NCBI RefSeq assembly: GCF_014196845.1
Contig: NZ_JACIEM010000003.1
Coordinates: 186,001-250,000 of the forward strand
DNA from: Aurantimonas endophytica
GTDB lineage: Bacteria; Pseudomonadota; Alphaproteobacteria; Rhizobiales; Rhizobiaceae
Direction of reading: 5' to 3'
DNA: 64,000 nucleotides
The notes under the pieces were generated by a model. It had not been told where the DNA came from. It ran no database searches and worked only from the letters and a program-made list of their open reading frames with translations. A program made the position numbers and the translations under genes. This document shows positions 1,319 through 15,009 of the stretch, piece after piece (positions within the stretch are counted from its first letter, which is position 1; the number at the start of each line of letters is the position of its first letter).

Positions 1319-1443
1319 CCCGTTCTCCTCGACGCACGGCCCACCGTTCGACCGGGCAGACTTAGCGTGAAGGATGACGGGGAGCAAAGACGATTTTGGA
1401 AGAAGGGCTTACGCTGGGAGGCGTCGCCCCGGGAGGAAGTGCC

Positions 1444-2700
1444 TTGCACGCGACGCTCAGAAACACGTTCGGATCCCTGCTTCTCAGCGCTGCGATGCTG
1501 GCGCCGATGCCGGGCGGCGTTCTGGCCCAGGATACAGCACCCGCGGCAGGGGCTGCCAGCACGCCCGGCCAGCCGCAGGCCCAGGCGGTGCGGATCGGAT
1601 TCCTGCGCACCTACGAACGCACTTTGGCGCTGTCGGTACTCGACATTCCGCCCGAGGATATCGGCCTTGCGGGCGCCAATCTCGCCATTGCAGACAATAA
1701 CACCACCGGCTCGTTCATGGGCCAGAATTTCGAGCTCGAGGTCGTCACGCTGGCGCCGGGCGACGACGTCGCCGAGCCCGCCCGCCAGATGCTGGCGGAC
1801 GGCATCCAGTACATCGTCACCGACCTTTCCGCCGACGACACGCTGACCGTCGCCGACCTGGCCGGCGAGACCGACACGCTGGTGTTCAACGCCGGGGCTC
1901 TCGACGACCGACTGCGCGGCGAGGCCTGCCGGGCCAACATGCTGCACACCGCACCGTCGCGGGCGATGCTCACCGACGGCATCGCGCAATATCTGATGTG
2001 GAAGCAGTGGCGGAACTGGGCGCTCATCGAAGGCGAGCACGAGGGCGACCAGCTGTTCGCCGAGGCGATGAAGAAATCGGCGACCAAGTTCGGCGGAACG
2101 ATCGTCGGCGAGAAGATCTTCGAGGACGCCGGCGGCGCCCGCGCCACCGATTCCGGCCAGGCCCTGGTGCAGCGCCAGATCCCGGTCTTCCTGCAGGACC
2201 TGCCGGATCACGACGTGCTGCTCGTCGCCGATGAGAGCGAGGTGTTCGGGACCTACGTTCCCTGGCGCAACTGGGTGCCGCGGCCGGTCGCCGGCACCGC
2301 GGGCCTCACCGCCGGCTCCTGGCATCCGGCCAGCGAGCAGTGGGGCGGCGCCCAGATCCAGAACCGCTTCGAGGACATGGCCGAGCGCCGCATGCAGTCC
2401 AAGGACATGCAGGTCTGGACGGCGATCCGGGTGATCGGCGAGGCGGCGTCGCGGACGCAGTCCACCGACCCCGCGGCGATCGCCGAGTTCATCAAGGGCG
2501 ACGATTTCGCCATCGCCGCCTTCAAGGGCCAGCGCCTCACCTTCCGCGACTGGGACTGGCAGCTGCGCCAGCCCATCCTGCTCGGCACCGAGGATTCCGT
2601 CGTGTCGGCATCCCCGCAGGAGGGCTTCCTGCACCAGGTCTCCGAACTCGACACGCTCGGCGTCGACGAGCCGGAGACCGAGTGCAGCTTCGCGAACTAG
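1444..2700 (+). CDS. ABC transporter substrate-binding protein, PQQ-dependent alcohol dehydrogenase system type
   Basis: About 418 residues from TTG 1444, preferred over TTG 1396 because GGGAGGA sits eight bases ahead and a clean signal peptide follows (hydrophobic to about residue 24, then AQD). The mature protein begins with an Ala/Pro-rich stretch and then VRIGFLRTYERTLALSVLD, typical of the branched-chain-amino-acid-like binding proteins always found with quinoprotein ABC systems (TIGR03863 type). It should capture an unknown periplasmic ligand for the ATPase and permease at 7044-8689. In methylotrophs, homologues sit in clusters linked to lanthanide uptake, so the ligand may be a metal or metallophore; that is inference. 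Confidence 0.85.
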   Translation: MHATLRNTFGSLLLSAAMLAPMPGGVLAQDTAPAAGAASTPGQPQAQAVRIGFLRTYERTLALSVLDIPPEDIGLAGANLAIADNNTTGSFMGQNFELEVVTLAPGDDVAEPARQMLADGIQYIVTDLSADDTLTVADLAGETDTLVFNAGALDDRLRGEACRANMLHTAPSRAMLTDGIAQYLMWKQWRNWALIEGEHEGDQLFAEAMKKSATKFGGTIVGEKIFEDAGGARATDSGQALVQRQIPVFLQDLPDHDVLLVADESEVFGTYVPWRNWVPRPVAGTAGLTAGSWHPASEQWGGAQIQNRFEDMAERRMQSKDMQVWTAIRVIGEAASRTQSTDPAAIAEFIKGDDFAIAAFKGQRLTFRDWDWQLRQPILLGTEDSVVSASPQEGFLHQVSELDTLGVDEPETECSFAN

Positions 2701-2837
2701 TCGCGGCGTGAGGCCTGCCCCGATCAGGGGCTTGACGGGGCGGGTCGCACGGCGCTTTTCGGCGTGCGAGAATGGGCCGGGGCGTGCCGGGCCCCACCCC
2801 CGCAAACCGTCGCAACAGGATTGGCCGCCGCGCTCCC

Positions 2838-4202
2838 GTGTCCCTCAAAGCCCGCCTCGCCGCCACGCTGACCATCGCCTTCCTCGTCATCCTGACGATC
2901 GGCAGCGTGCTGACTTTCCGGCTGGCGACGGAGAACATCGCGGCCGAACTGACCGCTGCCCGTAGCGTCGCCTCCAACCGCGTCGCACAGCTGATCGCCG
3001 AGCTGCCCGCTTCCCGCGACGTTCCGGGCAAGCTGGCGAGCTTCGTGCGGGCCTTCAACGGCGATCGCCACGTGCAGATCATGCTGATCGACGCCACCGG
3101 CGCCGTCCGCAGTCTCTCTCAGCCGGCGCAGGACGGCGGCGCCCTGCCCGCCTGGTTCGTGCAGCTCCTCGCCCCCGATCCCTCGGTCACCGTCATGCCG
3201 CTTTCGGGGAGCGCCCTGCCGATGACGGGGGCGGTGGTGTCGATCGACCCGCGCAACGAGCTCGCCGACACGTGGACCGAACTGTCGGTCAGTTTCGCGA
3301 TCCTGTGCCTGTTCGTGCTGATCGCCTTCGTCGCCGTCTGGGTGGTCGCCGATCGGGCGCTGCGCCCGCTGGACGTGATCCAGGCGGGGTTCGGGCGCAT
3401 CGGCAAGGGCAATTACGGCACCGCCGTCGACGCCTTCGGTCCGCCGGAGATGCGCACCCTCGCCACCGGCTTCAACAGGATGTCGAACCAGCTCGACGAG
3501 GTCTCCGCCCGCAATCGCCGCCTCTCCGAGCAGTTGCTGCGGCTGCAGGACGAGGAGCGCGCCGATCTCGCCCGCGATCTGCACGACGAGGTCGGGCCGC
3601 TGCTCTTTGCCATCGATGTCGACGCCTCGGCGATCGCCCGGCTGGCCAGGGGCGACCCGGCGCAGGGACCGCTCGCCGAACGCGCCGAGGCGATCAAGCA
3701 GGCGGCGCATCGCGCCAGGCGCGAGGTCCGGCGGATCCTCGGCGATCTGCGGCCCGGCCTGCTTCCGGGCCTCGGTCTCAAGGTCGCGGTGGAGACCATG
3801 GTCGAGGAACTCGCGCGCCGGCACCCCGAGGTCACCTTCGTCGCCGACATCGCCGACGGCGACTGGGGCGGTCCGACGGAAACGCTGCTCCAGCGGGTCA
3901 TCCGGGAGGCGGTCAACAACGCCCTCCGGCACGGCCACCCGACGCGGATCGCCATACGCGTCGCGCCGAAGGACGGACGTCTGTGCTTCGAGATCGTCGA
4001 CGATGGCGGTGGCCTGCCAGCCGGCGGCCCGACGGGCGGATTCGGCCTGATCGGCATGCGCGAGCGGATCGAGGCGGCAGGCGGCGAACTCGCCGTGTCG
4101 CAGGTGGCGCTGCCGCCGGGTGTCCGGCTGGCCGGCACCCTGCCGCTTGCCGAGCGCACCGGCGCGGACGACGTGGCAGATGAAGGGGAAAGAGCGGCAT
4201 GA
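2838..4202 (+). CDS. Membrane sensor histidine kinase, NarL/HisKA_3 type (PedS2/FlhS-like)
   Basis: About 454 residues from GTG 2838; an in-frame ATG at 2772 would add 22 residues and neither start has a strong ribosome site. A first membrane segment (residues 7-27), a periplasmic sensor region of about 120 residues and a second segment (about 152-172) are followed by a HAMP linker. The phospho-acceptor motif RDLHDEVGPLLF has its His at 249, and the HATPase domain ends with DDGGGLPAGG and GFGLIGMRERI. The stop overlaps the response-regulator start (ATGA). In Pseudomonas, PedS2 of the equivalent neighbourhood senses lanthanides; in Paracoccus, FlhS controls methanol oxidation. A role for this kinase in controlling the xox and ABC genes is inferred. 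Confidence 0.88.
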   Translation: MSLKARLAATLTIAFLVILTIGSVLTFRLATENIAAELTAARSVASNRVAQLIAELPASRDVPGKLASFVRAFNGDRHVQIMLIDATGAVRSLSQPAQDGGALPAWFVQLLAPDPSVTVMPLSGSALPMTGAVVSIDPRNELADTWTELSVSFAILCLFVLIAFVAVWVVADRALRPLDVIQAGFGRIGKGNYGTAVDAFGPPEMRTLATGFNRMSNQLDEVSARNRRLSEQLLRLQDEERADLARDLHDEVGPLLFAIDVDASAIARLARGDPAQGPLAERAEAIKQAAHRARREVRRILGDLRPGLLPGLGLKVAVETMVEELARRHPEVTFVADIADGDWGGPTETLLQRVIREAVNNALRHGHPTRIAIRVAPKDGRLCFEIVDDGGGLPAGGPTGGFGLIGMRERIEAAGGELAVSQVALPPGVRLAGTLPLAERTGADDVADEGERAA

Positions 4203-4837
4203 AGATCCTGATCGTCGACGATCACACCGTGGTGCGCGACGGGGTGCGGCGGCTCGTCGAGGTACTGCCGGACACCGAGATCGCCGAGGCCGAAAGCCCC
4301 TCGGAGGCGCTGGCGGCGTTCCGGCGCTTCCGCCCGGACGTCGTCGTGCTCGACATCAACCTGAAGAACGGCAGCGGCCTCGACGCGCTGCGGCGGCTGC
4401 GGGCCGACGATCCCAAGGCCCGCGTCGTCGTCTTCTCGATGTATTCCGACATCGTCTATGCCGTGTCCGCCCAGCGCGACGGCGCGCTCGGCTACGTGTC
4501 GAAGAGCGCGCCGTCCGACGAACTGCTGGTGGCGATCGAGAAGGCCTTCGAGGGCCTCGCCTATGTCGACGCCGAGACCGCCGCGATGATGGCGGAGCAC
4601 GAGTCCCACGGCGGCGGGGCGCGCGACCTGTCGCGGCGCGAGCTGCAGATCCTGCACATGCTCGGCGAAGGCAAGAGCCTCGCCGACATCGCCGAGGGTC
4701 TCGGCGTCGCCTACAAGACGATCGCCAACACCTCCACCCGCATGAAGGAAAAGCTCGGCGTCGAGCGCACCTCCGACCTCGTCCGCTTCGCGCTCGAGAC
4801 CAAGGGCGGGCGGATGCTCGGCCGGGAAAACCCGTAA
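4199..4837 (+). CDS. Response regulator, NarL/LuxR type
   Basis: A 212-residue two-domain regulator. The receiver domain has the acidic pocket IVDDH at residues 5-9, the phospho-acceptor D52 in VVLDINLKNG, and the conserved lysine in YVSKSAP. A LuxR-type helix-turn-helix fills about residues 138-200 (LSRRELQILHMLGEGKSLAD, then IANTSTRMKEKLGV). Translation is coupled to the kinase by an ATGA overlap, so the two are a cognate pair. The position between the binding protein and the beta-propeller gene matches regulators such as PedR2 and FlhR that control quinoprotein alcohol dehydrogenases. Likely targets are the promoters around 4838-5216 and upstream of xoxF; this is inference. Confidence 0.92.
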   Translation: MKILIVDDHTVVRDGVRRLVEVLPDTEIAEAESPSEALAAFRRFRPDVVVLDINLKNGSGLDALRRLRADDPKARVVVFSMYSDIVYAVSAQRDGALGYVSKSAPSDELLVAIEKAFEGLAYVDAETAAMMAEHESHGGGARDLSRRELQILHMLGEGKSLADIAEGLGVAYKTIANTSTRMKEKLGVERTSDLVRFALETKGGRMLGRENP

Positions 4838-5216
4838 CCCCTGTCGGGAAGGGAAGACGGGAACTTATCCCGTTGTCCCTGCTGAATTATCCGGGCTAGC
4901 TTCGCACAACGGTCGTTTCCCGGCCTCCTGCCCCTCCCAAAGGCAGCGGGGTCGGGGGCGGCCGGGTCGCTTCGCCGGATCCTGAGGATCGCGGCGGGCC
5001 CGACGGTGGTGGGCACCGGACGTCGGGCGGGAGGGCGGCAGAGCCGGTCGGCCGTGGCTGGCATTCGATGGCTCGCAACGTGCCTTCACTCTTCGAAGCG
5101 TTGCGGGCATATCGGATCGGGCGGTGGCGGCCCCGTTCGACGCATTGTCTGGCTTGTCGGCATCCTGCCGGGAGGTTTTCAGGAGACGGGATATCGGATC
5201 CCGCCGGGAGGATGAT
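4838..5216 (+). other. Non-coding gap between the two-component genes and the beta-propeller gene
   Basis: About 380 bases without a convincing reading frame. It ends in GGGAGGA a few bases before the TTG start at 5217. No clear terminator or long dyad is visible. It probably carries the promoter of the beta-propeller gene, and is a candidate target of the response regulator encoded just upstream. Confidence 0.5.
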
Positions 5217-6191
5217 TTGAGACGACTGACGACGGCGGCACTGGCCGCGACGCTTGCTTTGTCCGCGAGCCCCGCTTTCGCCTACAAGATCTTCGTATCG
5301 AACGAGAAGGGCAACGACATCACCGTGCTCGACTCGGAGAATTTCGAAGTCGTCGAGACTTTCGCTGTCGGGCAGCGGCCCCGCGGCATCGCGGTCAGCC
5401 CCGATGGCAAGTACCTCTATATCTGTGCCAGCGACAACGACACGATCCAGGTCTACGACACCGAGACCTACGCGTTCATCCGCACCCTGCCCTCCGGTCC
5501 CGATCCCGAGCTCCTGGTCCTCTCCCCGGACGGCACGCGCCTCTACGCCGCCAATGAGGACGACAATCTGGTCACGGCCATCGATCTCGAAACCGGCAAG
5601 CGGCTCGCCGAGATCCCGGTCGGCGTCGAGCCCGAGGGCATGGGCATCTCGCCCGATGGCCAGACCATCGTGAACACGTCGGAAACGACGAACATGGCCC
5701 ACTTCATCGACCGCGACAGCCACCAGATCACCGCCAATGTCCTGGTCGATTCCCGGCCGCGCTTTGCTCAGTACAAGGCGGACGGTTCGGAAGTCTGGGT
5801 CAGCGCCGAGATCGGCGGCACGGTCAGCGTCATCGACGCCGAGACCAAGGAGATCAAGCACAAGGTCACCTTCGAGATCCAGGGCATCCGGCCTGAGGCG
5901 ATCCAGCCGGTCGGCGTGCGCATCACCGATGACGGCACCAAGGCCTACGTGGCGCTCGGACCTGCCAATCGCGTCGCCGTCGTCGATGCCAACACCTACG
6001 AGGTGCTCGACTATCTGCTGGTCGGGCAACGCGTCTGGCAGCTCGCCTTCTCCCCCGACCAGAAGCATTTGTTCACCACCAACGGCATCTCCAACGACAT
6101 CTCGATCGTCGACGTGGAGTCCGGCGAGGTGATCAAGTCGGTGCAGGTCGGCCAGGAGCCCTGGGGCGTCGCGGTCACGCCGGACAGCTGA
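5217..6191 (+). CDS. PQQ-dependent catabolism-associated beta-propeller (YVTN) protein
   Basis: 324 residues from TTG 5217, chosen because GGGAGGA lies directly upstream and the protein then starts with a signal peptide ending ASPAFA before YKIFVSNEKGND. Repeated blades read like PRGIAVSPDGKYLYICASDN and PELLVLSPDGTRLYAANEDD through to the C-terminus, giving a seven-bladed YVTN propeller. It fits TIGR03866-type proteins encoded with the quinoprotein ABC transporter. It should be periplasmic, acting as a binding or scaffold protein; no catalytic residues are evident. The gene is followed by a GC-rich hairpin and then the poly-aspartate protein gene. A second YVTN gene of the same length occurs at 17418, so the locus has two propellers. 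Confidence 0.9.
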   Translation: MRRLTTAALAATLALSASPAFAYKIFVSNEKGNDITVLDSENFEVVETFAVGQRPRGIAVSPDGKYLYICASDNDTIQVYDTETYAFIRTLPSGPDPELLVLSPDGTRLYAANEDDNLVTAIDLETGKRLAEIPVGVEPEGMGISPDGQTIVNTSETTNMAHFIDRDSHQITANVLVDSRPRFAQYKADGSEVWVSAEIGGTVSVIDAETKEIKHKVTFEIQGIRPEAIQPVGVRITDDGTKAYVALGPANRVAVVDANTYEVLDYLLVGQRVWQLAFSPDQKHLFTTNGISNDISIVDVESGEVIKSVQVGQEPWGVAVTPDS

Positions 6192-6264: not shown

Positions 6265-6888
6265 ATGAAACCACTTTGGCTCTCGCTGATGGCAGCGACG
6301 CTGGCCTTCGCGCCGATCACCGTCGCCGCGGCGCAGGACGCAGCGGGCAGTACCCCGGCAGCCGCCGCCGATGAAGACGATGATGACGATGATGATGATG
6401 ATGACGACGATGCCGGCAGCGACCGCGCCGCGATGGTGCCGACCGCGGATCAGCTGAACATCCCGCAGGGCTCGGAACTGATGCCGGCCAGCGCTCTCAA
6501 CGGCGACCAGATCGGCCTGCCGCCGGCGACGCTCTCCTCGCAGATCGTCACGCCGCTGGTTCTCGGCCAGGGCGGCGAGCCGTTCGCGGTCAGCCACAAC
6601 GACATCTACCTGCGCTCCAACCAGGCCTATCGCTGGGACATCTCCTCCGAAGGCGACGTCGAGTACAAGTTCAACGCGCCGGGCTTCTTCCGCAACGTCT
6701 GGATGAACCAGATCGTCATCGAGGATCTCGAGATCCACATGGCCGGCGCGCCGGCATGGCTCGAATACGACGCGCACGGCACGATCAGCGTGTCGTTCCA
6801 GACGATCCGGCCGGGCCGCTACGAGTGGTACGTGGAGGGCCTGGAAGGCGACCAGGACATGAAGGGGACGATCACCGTCGTCCCGTAA
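6265..6888 (+). CDS. Exported protein with a 12-aspartate tract and a cupredoxin-like C-terminal domain
   Basis: 207 residues with a good ribosome site (GGGAGG). A signal peptide covers residues 1-24. Residues 36-49 are Asp-Glu followed by twelve consecutive Asp, encoded by mixed GAT/GAC codons at 6370-6411. The rest (from about 60) is a beta-rich domain ending with WYVEGLEGDQDMKGTITVVP, resembling small cupredoxin-like proteins, but I see no clear Cys/His/Met copper site. It lies between the beta-propeller and the ABC ATPase genes, so it probably acts in the same periplasmic system. The acidic run could bind hard cations such as Ca or lanthanides; that is inference. I do not recognise a characterised homologue. 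Confidence 0.8.
   Translation: MKPLWLSLMAATLAFAPITVAAAQDAAGSTPAAAADEDDDDDDDDDDDDAGSDRAAMVPTADQLNIPQGSELMPASALNGDQIGLPPATLSSQIVTPLVLGQGGEPFAVSHNDIYLRSNQAYRWDISSEGDVEYKFNAPGFFRNVWMNQIVIEDLEIHMAGAPAWLEYDAHGTISVSFQTIRPGRYEWYVEGLEGDQDMKGTITVVP
6370..6411 (+). repeat. GAT/GAC codon run encoding Asp-Glu-(Asp)12
   Basis: Fourteen consecutive acidic codons, GAT GAA followed by twelve GAY codons in irregular order. Mixed codons argue for selection on the peptide rather than pure replication slippage. Confidence 0.95.
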
Positions 6889-6928: not shown

Positions 6929-6965
6929 GGCCCGCATTACCTCACGGTATGCGGGCCTTCGCTTT
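6929..6965 (+). terminator. Rho-independent-type terminator after the poly-Asp protein gene
   Basis: Arms GGCCCGCAT (6929-6937) and ATGCGGGCC (6949-6957) are perfect complements around an 11-base loop, followed by the moderately T-rich TTCGCTTT. It would separate the upstream genes from the ABC ATPase gene, implying a further promoter between about 6966 and 7043. Confidence 0.7.
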
Positions 6966-7043: not shown

Positions 7044-7838
7044 ATGGCCCGTATCGCCCCCGATCCAAGCACAGCTGCCGCGCCGCCCGCGCTCGAGGTC
7101 GTCGGCGTCAGCCATTCCTACGGTACCCGCAAGGCGCTAGACGACGTTTCCTTCACGGTGCCGCAGGGCTCGTTCACGGCGCTGCTCGGTCCGAACGGTG
7201 CCGGCAAGTCGACCCTGTTCTCGTTGGTCACCCGCCTGTTCAACGTCCGCGATGGCGCGATCCGCATCCTCGGCCAGGATCTCGCGGAGCGTCCCGGCGA
7301 GGCGCTGCGCCGGCTCGGCGTGGTCTTCCAGGCGCGCACGCTCGATCTCGAGCTGTCGATCCGCCAGAACCTGAAATACCATGCTGCCTTGCATGGCATC
7401 TCCGGCGCTGCCGCCGACCGGCGTATCGCCGAGATCCTGGCCGGCTCCGAGCTGCTGGAGCGGCTCGGCGACAAGGCCCGGAACCTCTCCGGCGGCCAGC
7501 TCCGGCGGGTCGAGATCGTGCGCGCCTTCATGCACCGGCCGCGGCTGATCCTGCTCGACGAGCCGACCGTCGGCCTCGACATCCGCTCGCGTGCCGAGAT
7601 CGTCGCCGAGGTCCGGCGGCTGGTGATGGACGAGAATGTCAGCGTCCTCTGGGCAACGCATCTGATCGACGAGATCGACGAGACCGACCGCGTCGTGGTG
7701 CTGCATCACGGCAAGGTGCTGGCCGAGGGGCTGGTCCCGGACGTGGTGGAGTCCGAGAGCGCCGGCTCGATCCGCGACGCCTTCTCCCGCCTCACGGGTC
7801 TTGCCAGCCGCCAGCCCGATCTGGAGATGGTCTCTTGA
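7044..7838 (+). CDS. ABC transporter ATP-binding protein, quinoprotein-associated
   Basis: 264 residues from ATG 7044. Walker A GPNGAGKST lies at about residues 49-57, then the Q-loop (VFQART), the signature LSGGQLRRVEI, Walker B LILLDEPTVGLD and the switch His in WATHLIDEI. This is the family tied to PQQ alcohol dehydrogenase systems (TIGR03864 type) and energises the permease that follows. Its stop overlaps the permease TTG start (TTGA), so the subunits are coupled. In Methylorubrum an ABC system of this class is needed for lanthanide import; whether this transporter imports, or exports like many ABC-2 systems, cannot be settled from sequence. Confidence 0.92.
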   Translation: MARIAPDPSTAAAPPALEVVGVSHSYGTRKALDDVSFTVPQGSFTALLGPNGAGKSTLFSLVTRLFNVRDGAIRILGQDLAERPGEALRRLGVVFQARTLDLELSIRQNLKYHAALHGISGAAADRRIAEILAGSELLERLGDKARNLSGGQLRRVEIVRAFMHRPRLILLDEPTVGLDIRSRAEIVAEVRRLVMDENVSVLWATHLIDEIDETDRVVVLHHGKVLAEGLVPDVVESESAGSIRDAFSRLTGLASRQPDLEMVS

Positions 7839-8689
7839 GCAGCCTCGCCTCCCCTCGTCCCGACGACGGCGCGTCGCGCGGCTTCCCGCTTTCGGCCTAC
7901 GCGATCTGCTGCCGCGGCATCGTCTGGCGCGAGGCGCTGCGCTTCCTGCACCAGCGCGGCCGCTTCGTCTCGGCGCTGGTGCGCCCGCTGCTCTGGCTGT
8001 TCATCTTCGCCGCGGGCTTCCGCCAGGTGCTCGGCGTCTCGATTGTGCCGCCTTACGTCACCTACATCCTCTACGAGGTCTACATCACCCCCGGCCTCGT
8101 CGGCATGATCCTGCTGTTCAACGGCATGCAGTCCTCGCTCTCGATGGTCTACGACCGCGAGACCGGGACGATGAAGACGCTGCTGGTCTCGCCGCTGCCG
8201 CGATGGTTCCTGCTGGTCTCCAAGCTCGCCGCCGGCGTCGCCGTCGGCATCCTCCAGGTTTACGTCTTCTTCGTCATCGCCTGGTTCTGGGACGTCAAGC
8301 CGCCCTGGCAGGGCTATCTCTACGTCCTGCCGGCGCTGATCCTCTCCGGCCTGATGCTGGGCGCACTCGGCATGCTGCTTTCCTCGCTGGTTCAGCAGCT
8401 GGAGAATTTCGCCGGCATCATGAACTTCGTGATCTTCCCGATGTATTTCGCCTCGTCGGCCCTCTACCCGCTCTGGCGGGTGCAGGAATCGAGCCCGCTG
8501 CTCTATACGATCTGCCTGTTCAATCCGTTCACCCACGCGGTGGAACTGGTGCGCTTCGCGCTCTATCGTCAGTTCAATCTGGAGGCTTTCGCGATCGTCC
8601 TCGGCTGCACGATCGCGTTCCTCGGCGCCGCGATCCTCGCCTACGATCCGTCGCGCGGGCTGATCAGCCGCAAGCGGCAGGCCGGCTGA
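7835..8689 (+). CDS. ABC-2 type permease, quinoprotein-associated (PedC-like)
   Basis: 284 residues from TTG 7835, which overlaps the ATPase stop. After a polar N-terminus of about 40 residues there are about six hydrophobic segments, including LVRPLLWLFIFAAGF and a C-terminal one ending before DPSRGLISRKRQAG. The middle carries SMVYDRETGTMKTLLVSPLP, the usual ABC-2 coupling-helix region. This is the TIGR03861/PedC-type permease found with quinoprotein dehydrogenases. It forms the inner-membrane channel with the ATPase at 7044. ABC-2 folds are mostly exporters, which sits awkwardly with the separate binding protein at 1444; the transport direction is open. Confidence 0.9.
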   Translation: MSSLASPRPDDGASRGFPLSAYAICCRGIVWREALRFLHQRGRFVSALVRPLLWLFIFAAGFRQVLGVSIVPPYVTYILYEVYITPGLVGMILLFNGMQSSLSMVYDRETGTMKTLLVSPLPRWFLLVSKLAAGVAVGILQVYVFFVIAWFWDVKPPWQGYLYVLPALILSGLMLGALGMLLSSLVQQLENFAGIMNFVIFPMYFASSALYPLWRVQESSPLLYTICLFNPFTHAVELVRFALYRQFNLEAFAIVLGCTIAFLGAAILAYDPSRGLISRKRQAG

Positions 8690-8749
8690 AGACTGCAGCG
8701 GATGAAGGCCGGAACGGTTCGTCCGAGGAAACACAAGGGAGGAGAGCCC

Positions 8750-9598
8750 ATGTCCGCTCGATCCAAGCGCACTGCCCTCTGGGCCACCGGCCTCGTCGCG
8801 GCAGGCCTCGTCATCATGCCGGCCAGCGCCCAGGATGGCGCGCAGCCGCGCGACGTTCCGGAAGGCTTCGTCGTCCCAGGCCCCGCGCCCACCAACGCGC
8901 CGGATAGCCCGGCCCTGGCGCCGGGCGCGCAGCCGCAGGAAATACCGGAGGGCTTCGTCGTTCCGGGGCCGCCCCCCACCAATGCGCCCGAGGCGGGCGC
9001 CGCCGATCAAGCCCCGCCCGCTGCCGCCAACCCGATGAGCTTCGCCATCGCCCCGCACGAGGGCACCACCGACTGGCCCTGCGTCCAGCGGCGGGTGGAG
9101 ACGCTCACCCCCGCCCAGCTCTGGGCAGGCCCGGATCTTGCGCTGGCCGATGGGGTGCAGCGGACGCCGGAGATGCGCCGCCTGGTGGGGACCGTGATCG
9201 CCCGCCGGCTTCCGCTCGCCGAAGCCGAAGCGACGGTCGCCGATTTCGTCGCGTCGCTGCCCGAGGCCAATCGGGAAGCTACCGCGACGGCGTTGTTCGA
9301 GGATCTGCTGGCGGCGCTCAATGCCGAGCGCAGCCAGGTCATGGAGGGGATCGAGCGCTACGGCGCCAAGCAGAAGGAACTGGCGACGCGGCTGCGGGAG
9401 GAGAACGCCTCCTTCTTTGCCATGCAGCGTGAGGAAGGCGCCGATGCCGCGGCCGTCGAGGAGGCGCGCCAGGCGCTCGTCTGGGACACGCGCATCTTCA
9501 ACGAGCGGCGATCGTCCCTTACCTACGTCTGCGAGGTCCCGACCATGATCGAGCAGCGCGCCTTCGCGCTCGGGCGGGCGATCAGCCGCGCGCTCTGA
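8750..9598 (+). CDS. Exported protein of unknown function with a duplicated PEGFVVPGP motif
   Basis: 282 residues from ATG 8750 (GGGAGGAGAG upstream). A signal peptide ends near residue 28. Residues 30-51 and 59-80 are near-identical 22-residue repeats built around PEGFVVPGPAPTNAP / PEGFVVPGPPPTNAP, forming a Pro-rich stalk. From about residue 105 follows a helical domain containing TDWPCVQRRVETLTPAQLWA and YVCEVP, whose two Cys could pair. A long charged helix (about 200-250) suggests coiled-coil assembly. It follows the permease in the same direction and may be the last member of the ABC operon, like the exported proteins that end lut-type clusters. I know no assigned function. Confidence 0.75.
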   Translation: MSARSKRTALWATGLVAAGLVIMPASAQDGAQPRDVPEGFVVPGPAPTNAPDSPALAPGAQPQEIPEGFVVPGPPPTNAPEAGAADQAPPAAANPMSFAIAPHEGTTDWPCVQRRVETLTPAQLWAGPDLALADGVQRTPEMRRLVGTVIARRLPLAEAEATVADFVASLPEANREATATALFEDLLAALNAERSQVMEGIERYGAKQKELATRLREENASFFAMQREEGADAAAVEEARQALVWDTRIFNERRSSLTYVCEVPTMIEQRAFALGRAISRAL

Positions 9599-9954: not shown

Positions 9955-10551
9955 TCACTCGTCCGGCCGGGGCTCCGGCTCCGCCGCGACGAGCGGCAGC
10001 CCGGCTTCGGCCCAACCCTCGGTTCCGTCCGGGTACCAGTGGATGGCGCTATAGCCGGCGGCGATCGCCCGCCTGGCGGCGTTCCAGCTCATCCAGCAGT
10101 CCCGCTGGCAGTAGATCACCACCGGCGCCGCCTTGTCGCCGCCGGTGGCCTTGGCGAGCCCTTGCATGAAATAGGCCTCCATCACCGGCGCCAGCGCGCC
10201 GTAGCCGGTGTCCACCAGCCACAGCGAGCCGGGAATGTTCGTCCGCTCCTTCGGATGCCAGATCGTGCCTTCGGGAAGGTTCTGCGGGCGGGGTGGCCTC
10301 GGCAGCACGTCGACGAAGGCAATGCCGCGGTCATGCAGCGCCTTTGCGGCCGGCGTGTCGACGACGGTCCCGCCCGACAGGCTGGAAGGCACCGGGGCGC
10401 GGTAGGCGTCCATGCGATACCCGTCGGGCTCCGCAACCGCACTCGGGAAATCCGCGGCCAAAGCCGCTCCGCCTTGCCCCGGAAGGGCAAGACACGCGGC
10501 CGCCAAGCCCACCGCGACCAGGCGCAGGGGCGCCGGCCGCAGCCGTTTCAT
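9955..10551 (-). CDS. Rhodanese-like PQQ-dependent catabolism-associated CXXCW-family protein
   Basis: 198 residues from ATG 10551, overlapping the xoxJ stop as ATGA. A signal peptide runs to about residue 33, so the protein is periplasmic. The C-terminal half has the rhodanese-like core with YCQRDCWMSWNAARRA, the Cys-Trp motif that names the TIGR03865 family, followed by WYPDGTEGW. In this family the motif replaces the usual rhodanese active-site loop. These proteins always accompany PQQ dehydrogenase gene sets; a redox or sulfur-relay role with the SoxYZ-like carrier at 16074 is plausible but unproven. It is the distal gene of the xoxG-xoxJ operon. Confidence 0.88.
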   Translation of the reverse strand: MKRLRPAPLRLVAVGLAAACLALPGQGGAALAADFPSAVAEPDGYRMDAYRAPVPSSLSGGTVVDTPAAKALHDRGIAFVDVLPRPPRPQNLPEGTIWHPKERTNIPGSLWLVDTGYGALAPVMEAYFMQGLAKATGGDKAAPVVIYCQRDCWMSWNAARRAIAAGYSAIHWYPDGTEGWAEAGLPLVAAEPEPRPDE

Positions 10552-11471
10552 TGCGCGTCGCCGGCAGCCGGCGCCGTGTCGCCGTCGGGACCGGGCGCTT
10601 CCTGCGCAGCCTGACCCGTTTTCGACAGGATCGGGCGATCCTCTTCGTCGAGCAGCGGCACGCCGTAGGACAGGAGAATTTCGTTGATCTCGTCCTGGTG
10701 CTGCGCGATCGCGCGGTTCAGCGTCCGCTTCCACTCCTGGTCCGCCGGACGCACACCCATGGTGATGCGGAAGGCCATGGCGGCCCCGCCCGCTTCCTTG
10801 TGCAGCGGCACGACGGTGTAGTCGCGCTCGGCCTGCTTGGCGTAGTAGCCGGCCATCGGACCCCAGAGTACCGCCGCGTCGATCTCGCCGGAGGCCAGAT
10901 CGTCGATCATCGCCTTGGCGGAATTGTCGACGCGGGTGTCGATCATCAGCTGGTACGCCTTGGCGCGGCCCATCAGCCCGGCTCGCGCCAGATAGCTGCC
11001 CGGCGGCGTGCCGGCGATGATGCCGACGCGCTTGTCCTTCAGCTTCGGGTCCGAGAGCGATTCGACGCCATCGAGTTCGCCGCCGCTGGGATAGACCAGC
11101 GCATAGGCCGTCCGGTAATAGGCGTTGGTGTTCTGGACGAGCTCGTCACCCTGCGGATAGCTGATGATGAGGTCGCAGACATTGGCGCCGAGCGTCATGC
11201 GCACGAAGCCGGTGGCCTGCGGGAAATAGGCGTAGGATACCGACTTCCGCCCGAGCTTTTCCGCCAAAAACCGTGCGACCGCCTGCTCGAACCCCTCTTC
11301 CGCCTGGTTCGAGAACGGCATGTTGTTGGGGTCGGCGCAGACCCGCAACACGTCCGGATCGACGAGTTCGATCTCGCCGCCGAACTCCCGATCCTGTGCT
11401 TGTGCCGCATGCGGCGCCGCGAGCAGAACCATGCTCGCGACACCGGCGACGACTGAGATGAGTCGTTTCAT
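10548..11471 (-). CDS. xoxJ: XoxJ, MxaJ-like periplasmic binding protein
   Basis: 307 residues from ATG 11471, directly after a secretion signal of 25 residues ending AAQAQ. The body is a family-3 type solute-binding fold: LRVCADPNNMPFSNQAEEGFE at the start of the mature protein, VGIIAGTPPGSYLARAGLM in the hinge region and AAVLWGPMAGYYAKQ near the end. XoxJ is encoded with XoxF and XoxG in lanthanide-dependent methanol oxidisers and is thought to help assemble or activate the dehydrogenase. It starts only four bases after the xoxG stop and overlaps the next gene, so the three form an operon. The C-terminus carries an Ala/Pro-rich tail after residue 285. Confidence 0.92.
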   Translation of the reverse strand: MKRLISVVAGVASMVLLAAPHAAQAQDREFGGEIELVDPDVLRVCADPNNMPFSNQAEEGFEQAVARFLAEKLGRKSVSYAYFPQATGFVRMTLGANVCDLIISYPQGDELVQNTNAYYRTAYALVYPSGGELDGVESLSDPKLKDKRVGIIAGTPPGSYLARAGLMGRAKAYQLMIDTRVDNSAKAMIDDLASGEIDAAVLWGPMAGYYAKQAERDYTVVPLHKEAGGAAMAFRITMGVRPADQEWKRTLNRAIAQHQDEINEILLSYGVPLLDEEDRPILSKTGQAAQEAPGPDGDTAPAAGDAQ

Positions 11472-12476: not shown

Positions 12477-14369
12477 TTAGTTATTGGTCGCCGGAGCGGC
12501 TGCATCAGCCGGAGCTGCCGGGGCCGCCGAAGCGGTCTGGTCCGGCACGGTGAAGACCGTCAGCTGGCCGCCGAGCGCGGTGTACTTCGACAGGGCCGCA
12601 TAGCCGCCGACCGCGCCGAGACCGGCGTTGGGATCGGTGAGGCCGGCCGCGAGGCCGATGCCGGCCCAGCCGCCGATGCCGGACAGGATGCCGACATACT
12701 GCTGGCCTTCATGCTCGTAGGTCATCACGTTGCCGATGATGCCCGACGGGGTCTTGAACTTGTAGAGCTCGTCGCCCGTCTCCGCGTCGACCGCCTTCAG
12801 GAAGCCTTCCAGCGTGCCGTAGAACACGACGCCGCCGGCGGTTGCCAGGGCACCCGACCATACCGAGAACTGCTCGGGCAGCGACCACTTGATCTCGCCC
12901 GTGCCGGCGTCCCAGGCAATGAAGTTGCCCATGCCGCCGTGGCTGTCCGGAGCCGGGTACATCGACAGGGTCGCGCCCACATAGGGCTGGCCTGCCGTGT
13001 AGGCGACGCGGAACGGCTCATAGTCCATGCAGACGTGGTTGGTCGGGACGTAGAACAGCTTGGTCTCCGGCGAGTACGCCGCAGGCTGCTGGTCCTTGGT
13101 GCCGAGCGCCGCCGGGCAGATGCCGGTGGAGTTCACGTCTTCGCCGTTCTGCTCGGTCGAGTATTCGGCGACCACCTGCGGCCGGCCGTACTGATCCGAG
13201 TTCGGGTCCATCACGACTTCGGTCGCCCAGTTGACGGCCGGATCGTACTTCTTGGCGACCAGCAGCTCGCCGGTCTCACGATCCATCGTGTAGGCGAAGC
13301 CGTTGCGGTCGAAGTGGACCAGCGCCTTGCGCTCGGTGCCGCCGACGTCGATGTCCGCGAGGATCATCTCGTTGACGCCGTCGAAGTCCCACTCGTCGTG
13401 CGGGGTCATCTGGTAGACCCACTTGGCCATGCCGGTGTCGGCGTCGCGGGCCATGATGGTCATCGACCATTTGTTGTCGCCCGGGCGCTGCGCCGGGTTC
13501 CAGGTCGAGGGGTTGCCGGTGCCGTAATAGATCAGGTTGAGTTCCGGATCGAAGGCGAACCAGCCCCAGGTCGTGCCGCCGCCGATCTGCCACTGGTCGC
13601 CTTCCCAGCTCTTCAGCGAGGAGTCGGCGCCGACCGGCTTGCCGAGCGACATGGTCTGCTCCGGGTCGAACAGCATCTCGTCGTCCGGGCCGGTCGAGTA
13701 GGCACGCCATGCCTGGCTGCCGTCCGACAGGTTGTAGGCGGTCAGCGAACCGCGAACGCCGAACTCGCCGCCGGAGATGCCGATATACACCTTGTCCTTG
13801 ACGATCATCGGCGCCGCCGTGCCGGTCTCGCCCTTCGACGGGTCGCCGTTCTGGACGGACCAGACCTGCTCGCCGGTCTCGGCATCGAGCGCCACGACGG
13901 TCGTGTCGGCCTGGTGGAGGATGACCAGGGCACGCCCGTCCGCACCTTCAGCCGGCGCATAGGCCACGCCGCGGTTGACGGTGTCGCAGCACATCACCGG
14001 GATGACGCTCGGGTCCTGCTTCGGCTCGTAGCGCCACTTGATCGAGCCTTCGTCGTTCAGGTCGAGCGCGTAGACGATGTTGGGGAACGGGGTGTGGACG
14101 TACATCGTGTCGCCGATCACCAGCGGGTTGCCCTCGTGACCGCGCAGCACGCCGGTCGAGAAGGTCCACGCCGGGACCATGTCGCCGACATTGTCCTTGT
14201 TGATGGCATCCAGCGTCGAGTAGCGCTGGTTGGCGTAGTTGCCGGTGGGCATGACCCACTGCTTGGCATCGCCCTGCAGATCCATGAGTGCCTCGTTCGC
14301 CGAGGCAGCGGCCCCGAACGAGACGAGCAGGCTCGAGGCGAGCGCGGCTTTCGTAATGGCTTTCAACAT
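12477..14369 (-). CDS. xoxF: XoxF, lanthanide-dependent PQQ methanol dehydrogenase
   Basis: 630 residues from ATG 14369 (GGAGGACAG upstream); longer frames upstream are spurious. After a 24-residue signal the protein follows XoxF throughout: [18 protein letters not shown], the adjacent-cysteine PQQ site [29 protein letters not shown] and [20 protein letters not shown]. The key site reads [11 protein letters not shown]: the catalytic Asp is residue 328 and a second Asp is at 330. Calcium-dependent MxaF has Ala at the second place, so this is the lanthanide type, closest to the XoxF5-like group by eye. It oxidises methanol in the periplasm and passes electrons to XoxG. A tail of 19 mostly Ala/Pro residues follows the usual C-terminus and is unusual. 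Confidence 0.97.
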
Positions 14370-15009
14370 CAACTGTCCTCCCAAAGACATATTCCGATGG
14401 CGTCCAAAGGCAGGATTGCCGATGACGACATGTAGCGAACTGGGGGAAGGTTTCCGGCAGCGTGTCACGACCGCCAATAGGGGTCTTGGTGGGCACCGTT
14501 GATCGAACGCCCTACCGTGGCCTTCGAGATTCGGAGTGCTCCCAACACCCCGACCTTGAAGCCGGAAACCATGGAGGATGCTAGTTCGGGAAATATTCCT
14601 GCGCAAGCGCAAAAACGGAAACTTGTAGGTGCACTGCAGCATTCTTATCGTGCAATGCAAAAATAACCATTCCGGCGTCATGATTTGGGTGGGCTCATGA
14701 TGATGACGCACAGCGAAATTCTCACTGCCCCCGAAAAATCCCAGCATGCGCCTTGCATTTGGTAGCAGGCTGAAGCTTTACCCATTGTAAGATTCCATTT
14801 TATTGGGTCCGGTCAGATAATGTTGCTGGGATCTATTCTCCGGCGACTTTCTCGCCCGGCCGGTTCTGCGGGCGCATCCCATCGGCCTCCTCGATCATCA
14901 CGAATGGCGTCGATGCCGGAAAGAACAGGCCGGCCGCGGACAGCTTGACGCAGGAGCGCGGCGCGCCGTCCCGCTTGCCTCCCGGTATCGAAGCGGATCA
15001 CATGGCCCC
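14370..15009. promoter_or_regulatory. Divergent intergenic region upstream of xoxF and the metallo-hydrolase gene
   Basis: 640 bases without a credible gene. The stretch 14580-14820 is far more AT-rich than its surroundings, as expected of the strong xoxF promoter. It contains the nine-base palindromic words TGCACTGCA (14630-14638) and TGCAATGCA (14651-14659), whose starts are 21 bases apart. A looser dyad ACCCAT...TTGGGT spans about 14779-14809. No transcription start can be fixed by eye. Confidence 0.6.
14630..14659. promoter_or_regulatory. Paired TGCANTGCA words, possible operator of xoxF
   Basis: Two copies of the self-complementary word TGCA-N-TGCA occur at 14630-14638 and 14651-14659, exactly two helical turns apart and about 260-290 bases ahead of the xoxF start. 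That geometry suits a dimeric activator such as the response regulator at 4199. This is inference from spacing only. Confidence 0.4.

Follow-up and report, generated by a model that had tools for sequence, protein, structure and literature searches.

A predicted cupredoxin-fold exported protein with a poly-aspartate tail encoded in a lanthanide-uptake locus of Aurantimonas endophytica

There are several descriptions of bacterial systems that take up lanthanides (Ln). The importer is described as PedA1A2BC in Pseudomonas putida and as lut in M. extorquens (PMC6839425; PMC12997753; PMC7391723; papers are cited throughout from excerpts of their text). In strain AM1, the genes are arranged in the order lutA-lutB-lutC-lutD-lutE, LutD binds Ln, and loss of lutC causes a small growth defect (PMC7391723). 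In Beijerinckiaceae RH AL1, lutAEF and the lutD homologue are found at separate places, and the latter responds to Ln (PMC10848612). A study of Sinorhizobium meliloti 2011 on methanol names homologues of lutA, B, E, F and G, and in its excerpted text not those of lutC or lutD (PMC12628762). Other small periplasmic Ln-binding proteins have been described, lanpepsy and landiscernin (PMC11996626), in addition to the EF-hand protein lanmodulin. Cupredoxins occur in metal transport as well: according to the excerpt, FtrB is a cupredoxin of an iron transporter, and its D118 is needed for Cu binding (PMC11966278). A paper on the copper protein PmoD names cupredoxin, lanthanide and XoxF together (PMC6189053, excerpt). 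Only a small number of natural folds are known to bind Ln.

The locus in Aurantimonas endophytica and the distribution of the family

The window is a stretch of 64,000 nucleotides from the Aurantimonas endophytica contig NZ_JACIEM010000003.1. The features around the gene under study are as follows.

1396-2700, plus strand: ABC substrate-binding protein, TIGR03863, LutA/PedA1-like; start uncertain
2772-4202, plus strand: sensor histidine kinase
4199-4837, plus strand: LuxR-type response regulator
5124-6191, plus strand: PQQ-associated YVTN beta-propeller, TIGR03866, LutB/PedA2-like
6265-6888, plus strand: gene of the poly-Asp, cupredoxin-like exported protein (207 aa, with homologues)
6929-6957, plus strand: RNA hairpin downstream of this gene and ahead of lutE, lacking a T-run (fold z -2.8)
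7044-7838, plus strand: ABC ATPase, TIGR03864 over cut-off, LutE/PedB-like; start by inspection, open frame from 6756
7835-8689, plus strand: ABC permease, TIGR03861, LutF/PedC-like
8702-9598, plus strand: exported protein at the place of lutG, without a family match over cut-off
9955-10734, minus strand: PQQ-associated CXXCW protein, TIGR03865
10548-11552, minus strand: MoxJ/XoxJ-like binding protein, TIGR03871
11476-12381, minus strand: XoxG-like c-type cytochrome; its TIGR03874 score of 157.8 bits is slightly below the cut-off of 161.75
12477-14747, minus strand: PQQ methanol dehydrogenase, TIGR03075, with a WDFDG motif

TIGR03863, TIGR03866, TIGR03864 and TIGR03861 are thus all found near a PQQ methanol dehydrogenase, as expected of a Lut/Ped importer locus, and these matches of the neighbours support the original prediction that the gene at 6265-6888 lies in a locus for Ln uptake and methanol oxidation. 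WDFDG is the motif of Ln-type XoxF. The predicted xoxF neighbour is present, at a distance of about 5.6 kb. The other predicted neighbour, a quinoprotein beta-propeller, is indeed a propeller, but not an enzyme, since its YVTN/TIGR03866 match makes it an accessory propeller of the PedA2/LutB type. The YVTN propeller is equated with LutB in an excerpt on Methylocella (PMC9291206), and on this basis the gene at 6265-6888 occupies the place of lutC/lutD in AM1.

Three further observations concern the surroundings of the gene. In the exported protein at 8702-9598, two near-copies of one segment, VPEGFVVPGPAPTNAPD and IPEGFVVPGPPPTNAPE, follow the signal region, and in the XoxG-like cytochrome a long Ala/Pro/Glu repeat linker precedes the heme domain. 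The hairpin 3' of the gene also folds in four of five orthologous loci (L007, L009, L010 and L011; z -3.5 to -4.5), where its sequence differs, and is absent from the fifth (L008; z +0.6); the stretches were picked by eye, and the shuffle tests took in the hairpin of the window and these five loci. It is not a classical terminator because it has no T-run, and a scan of the locus detected no promoter-like or terminator-like site. As a speculation, the hairpin may lift the level of the protein relative to the transporter.

BLAST-level relatives of the protein occur in 19 of the 60 nearest-relative genomes, A. endophytica included; the nearest named relative is A. aggregata (96% for this protein), and the product is annotated as 'hypothetical protein' in all three annotated named records of family members. 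A profile of 24 proteins (A2) was used for the family searches of genomes, and all genome tallies count A. endophytica's own; counts throughout take no account of kinship. By this profile, 70 of 297 genomes from the order Hyphomicrobiales carry the family. In samples of the class and of the phylum, with overlap between the draws, it is present in 23 of 289 and 29 of 249 genomes, respectively. Seven of the 23 class matches and 13 of the 29 phylum matches are weak only, with E values that exceed about 1e-15; the weak ones from the class include at least two canonical copper proteins, L170 and L172.

Within the order, TIGR03864 is over its cut-off in 68 of the 70 family-positive genomes versus 33 of the 227 family-negative ones (Fisher p 6e-39, kinship ignored), so that the family is strongly associated with the Ln-type ABC system; the two exceptions are G237, with a TIGR03864 match of 277.9 bits, below the cut-off, and G249. 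XoxF matching that of the window at E<=1e-200 is present in 51 of 70 versus 25 of 227 genomes, kinship again ignored. The nearest TIGR03864 gene lies less than 1 kb from the family gene in 22 of the 70 genomes, at 1-10 kb in 15 and beyond 10 kb on the same contig in nine, whereas the remaining 24 have it on a different contig or have no such hit. This count omits seven weak places, one of which (G145, E 2e-5) is about 200 bp from its TIGR03864 gene and would, if counted, make one of the 24 genomes an adjacent case. The order propeller - family gene - ATPase is seen in 18 of 22 loci fetched from near relatives and members of the order, which include at least one genome twice, and also on plasmids of Rhizobium leguminosarum, Phyllobacterium, Ensifer adhaerens and Sinorhizobium sojae. 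In S. meliloti, the family gene comes after the propeller, and between it and the LutE/LutF-like genes there is a second ABC set. In two S. meliloti loci (L249, and L251 on pSymB of strain 2011), this second set (binding protein, permease and ATPase, annotated in L249) lies upstream of gfa and RuBisCO genes. At another locus (L228, in G193), two family matches stand back to back in one open frame, forming a tandem-domain member.

The association has its limits in both directions. Family members outside Ln loci exist (L141, L146 and L149), and the family was not found in 33 of the 101 LutE-positive genomes of the order. None of 117 Methylobacterium genomes matches the profile at E<=1e-3. Since LutE-positive genomes without the family, Methylobacterium among them, are this common, the family cannot be a general requirement for Ln uptake.

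The exported protein and its core domain

The gene starts with ATG behind a purine-rich stretch and encodes a signal peptide (judged by eye), a short linker, the run D-E-D12 and a beta-rich domain.

6265-6333, plus strand: signal peptide MKPLWLSLMAATLAFAPITVAAA, residues 1-23, by inspection
6370-6411, plus strand: acidic tract D-E-D12, residues 36-49, read from the sequence
6535-6885, plus strand: predicted cupredoxin-fold domain, about residues 91-207, from a structural model and a sequence link for other family members

The D-E-D12 run of the exported protein is confirmed. The original prediction had it directly after the signal peptide; the N-terminal location is right, but about 12 residues (QDAAGSTPAAAA) intervene between the likely cleavage site, again judged by eye, and the run. 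The beta-rich domain predicted downstream of it is borne out by an AF2 model.

Sequence searches with the window protein itself were silent: no family was over the cut-off in NCBIfam or Pfam, and no meaningful match was obtained from NCBIfam, Pfam or the PDB sequences. In the PDB-sequence search, the rows named 'Bagel' sum up repeats, and no single stretch passes. Weak Pfam matches to DUF3246 and ribosomal P-proteins were rejected, as they resemble low-complexity acidic matches.

The AF2 model, built from 8 sequences, has a mean pLDDT of 78.4; the blocks of the domain mostly reach 77-96, two weak ones have 51 and 70, and confidence is low over the acidic tract. The best Foldseek match is auracyanin (E 3e-06) with modest TM-scores of 0.40/0.52, in a list that also includes non-cupredoxins such as a protease inhibitor. 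VIA aligned the model with a mutant chain of AcoP (Z 10.4, rmsd 1.9 A, 102 aligned residues), with a Cupredoxin_1 protein (4hcf, Z 9.6) and with FtrB (Z 9.2). Among 26 diverse family members (A4), 10 match PF13473 (Cupredoxin_1) at E<=0.1, the best at 2.7e-07, and 14 match the NCBIfam plastocyanin model TIGR02656 at the same threshold, the best at 3e-04. Neither the window protein nor any of the 24 A2 members matches Cupredoxin_1, the latter at E<=1. Against the PDB, the A2 profile gave one weak row, nitrite reductase (E 1.7), the A4 profile gave weak rows for filamin, plastocyanin and nitrite reductase, of which filamin was best (E 0.0026), and one member searched singly gave chance rows only. 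The model, together with the Pfam and NCBIfam matches of other members, predicts a cupredoxin-fold domain as the core of the protein.

Residues of this domain were compared among homologues made distinct by their last 60 residues, with close copies (e.g., L007/L015, L019, L020 and L023) counted once and with named plasmid relatives and loci of the phylum draw excluded. This gave 109 homologues, or 103 core members after removal of six remote proteins (E>=1e-20). Of the six, four carry the first-ligand His and two the whole copper set; the full set of His plus Cys-His-Met is kept in the remote lipoprotein-like relatives L170 and L172. None of the 103 core members has the first-ligand His, and none has Cys-His-Met in its last 35 residues; the type-1 blue copper ligand set is therefore absent from the core of the family. 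Four acidic columns are conserved instead.

6661-6663, plus strand: Glu133, immediately N-terminal to the position at which canonical relatives have the first copper His; E in 98 of 103
6730-6732, plus strand: Glu156, where the confidence of the model is low; E in 100 of 103
6763-6765, plus strand: Glu167; E in 100 of 103
6769-6771, plus strand: Asp169; D or E in 101 of 103

All four are acidic in 95 of the 103 members, and D and E together make up 15% of the domain residues. Trp146 is likewise conserved, in 98 of 103. Glu156 and Glu167/Asp169 are located in the two blocks of weak pLDDT; by the cupredoxin topology that we assume, the strands bearing Glu133 and Glu167/Asp169 should end at the metal pole. 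In four homologues (L028, L090, L094 and L168), a Cys directly follows the first acidic position and another lies in the old copper loop, perhaps as a disulfide replacing the metal site. As far as alignment and model can tell, the conserved feature of the family is the predicted cupredoxin domain with four near-invariant acids and no copper ligands.

Conservation and origin of the poly-aspartate tract

At least four consecutive Asp residues after the signal peptide are found in 19 of the 109 homologues, at least five in 17 and at least eight in 10. The runs of at least eight belong to Aurantimonas, Jiella, Fulvimarina and other genomes of the window's own family, and those of 6-7 to Nitratireductor and Aureimonas; shorter ones occur in other branches (L030, L051, L075 and L197), and R. 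leguminosarum and Phyllobacterium, outside the 109, also have at least four. The tract is thus kept in some orthologues, and its total absence, which would have spoken against the original prediction, was not seen. That prediction also made the acidic run the functional heart of the protein, and this part is not supported: 90 of the 109 homologues are without four consecutive Asp, the run varies from 5 to 14 within the genus, and the E. adhaerens ortholog, in the same slot and with a domain 57% identical, has no tract. A tract absent from so many members cannot be the conserved function of the family, and we propose that the poly-Asp tail is a lineage-specific add-on to the core domain.

In the window, the tract is encoded by GAT GAA GAC GAT GAT GAC GAT GAT GAT GAT GAT GAC GAC GAT, a mixture that rules out a pure GAT microsatellite. 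Over 21 tract-bearing proteins, the tracts hold 122 GAC, 82 GAT, 5 GAA and 1 GAG versus 153 GAC, 64 GAT, 95 GAA and 116 GAG in the rest of the same proteins, i.e., 204 Asp and 6 Glu codons versus 217 and 211. The share of GAT among Asp codons is 40% in the tracts, 29% in the rest of these proteins and 26% in seven neighbour genes. As a control, one heuristic for signal peptides and starts was applied to the fetched loci of 9 kb or more: of the 240 other secreted-like ORFs that it identified, none has four consecutive Asp in the same N-terminal zone, as compared with 19 of the 109 homologues. This result speaks against a random origin of the tract and rules out a general poly-Asp habit of secreted proteins at these loci.

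The mixed codons had been taken to mean that the run is kept as peptide. They are indeed mixed and the tract is nearly pure Asp, which from codon usage favours upkeep of Asp, but partly neutral growth may still have contributed. Asp codons alone can lengthen by slippage. One alternative, with a substantial minority chance, is a tract without a metal role, either a tail that serves electrostatics or solubility or a GAY-codon expansion that is partly neutral. Such a tail would fit the variable length, the tract-free ortholog in E. adhaerens and the low model confidence over the tract. On the other hand, a tract without a metal role is less easily reconciled with the mixture of GAT and GAC without long pure repeats, with the runs of at least four Asp in the other branches, R. 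leguminosarum and Phyllobacterium, and with the lack of such runs in the control ORFs.

Proposed role and comparison with known systems

We give a probability of about 0.5 to the reading that the protein is a periplasmic accessory protein of the Lut/Ped Ln importer, with a carboxylate hard-metal site in its core and the tail as a dispensable cation antenna. The four carboxylates would form a candidate hard-metal site for Ln3+ or a Ln-chelate at or near the old copper pole. The protein would take up Ln3+ in the periplasm and hand it on to LutA, LutB or LutEF, or to apo-XoxF. The poly-Asp tail would be disordered and bind cations weakly with high capacity; it would raise the local Ln concentration weakly and reversibly, and the basic function would not need it. 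A bolder version, which we hold only tentatively, is that a copper fold turned into a Ln chaperone: the copper ligands would have been lost and the four carboxylates would have taken over close to that pole, and the protein would have become a recurrent part of importer operons and a partial stand-in for lanmodulin, to which one lineage added a poly-Asp sponge.

Conserved carboxylates can also serve folding or partner contacts, and cupredoxin folds without metal exist. The core might accordingly be a structural or assembly subunit that binds no metal and docks the propeller or the substrate-binding protein to the ABC permease. The recurrence of the gene slot beside propeller and ATPase would suit such a subunit, as would the Methylobacterium loci, 29 of 30 of which lack a gene in this slot in an otherwise similar order. 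It is nevertheless somewhat unlikely, because the gene lies on a different contig from TIGR03864, or TIGR03864 is missing, in 24 of 70 genomes, and because four near-invariant E/D among few other invariant residues look more like a ligand set than an interface.

An unlikely alternative is that the protein is a simple ortholog of M. extorquens LutD (or LutC), and that its Ln binding is hence already known. The gene position between lutB and lutE is equal, and the lutD homologue of RH AL1 is apart from lutAEF just as the family gene is often away from lutE. Against orthology, the family profile finds nothing at E<=1e-3 in the 117 Methylobacterium genomes, and S. meliloti 2011 has a family member, yet lutC and lutD are unnamed in the excerpted study of this strain (PMC12628762). 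LutE matches are present in 57 of 60 Methylobacterium genomes, and at 29 of 30 loci the propeller directly precedes LutE, at 0-84 bp, the remaining one (L123) being without an adjacent propeller match. The AM1-type cluster lutABCDEFGH-lanM was not found in these 30 loci, in twenty more or in L135 and L136, as judged by matches to LutE, LutF and the propeller; several of the loci in the last two sets have LutE/LutF without a propeller match. Binding of copper or iron through other ligands, as by Asp118/His121 of FtrB, with a role in redox or iron handling rather than for Ln, is very improbable, for although FtrB is among the structural matches and Met199 is retained, no core member has the Cys-His-Met set and the family is associated with the Ln-type transporter and XoxF.

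The family is likely an uncharacterised metal-handling component of the already known Lut system. No cupredoxin-type Ln protein was found in the literature searched, as far as its excerpted texts go, and AM1 LutC/LutD and landiscernin could overlap with it. If Ln binding is true, the domain would be a further fold, not yet among those known to bind rare earths, and members that share the core but differ in the presence of a poly-Asp tail would offer a natural comparison; members occur in the tractable rhizobia S. meliloti 2011 and R. leguminosarum.

Compared with described importers, the window shares the parts TIGR03863, TIGR03866, TIGR03864 and TIGR03861 with PedA1A2BC of P. putida, but the four-gene ped transporter, as the excerpt describes it, has no such extra protein (PMC6839425). 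AM1 LutC and LutD are alike in being exported and encoded between lutB and lutE, a likeness of position alone, and differ in that they come from a group in which the family profile has no match at E<=1e-3 (117 Methylobacterium genomes). Cupredoxin_1 proteins, FtrB and AcoP share the predicted fold, but the family is without their type-1 copper set and has the four acids and the Ln context instead. Lanpepsy carries PepSY domains, and neither the window protein nor any of the 26 A4 members gave a PepSY match in Pfam (E<=0.1).

The predicted distinction from EF-hand lanmodulin stands: the window protein has no EF-hand match in Pfam at E<=0.1 and no EF-hand loop visible in its sequence. The A. endophytica genome has no lanmodulin match at E<=1e-8. 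Among the 101 LutE-positive genomes, those with a lanmodulin match of at least 47% identity have the family less often (6 of 19 versus 62 of 82, p 6e-4); this threshold was set after the hits were seen, and kinship may account for the effect. If every lanmodulin-like match at E<=1e-8 is counted, the anti-correlation is gone (18 of 31 versus 50 of 70, p 0.25). Outright replacement of lanmodulin is weakened by this null result and by the six genomes with both a strong lanmodulin match and the family. Lanmodulin, likewise a small periplasmic acidic protein of Ln users, is the described protein that the family may resemble in the way it works, although lanmodulin is built of EF-hands and the family protein has a predicted cupredoxin fold.
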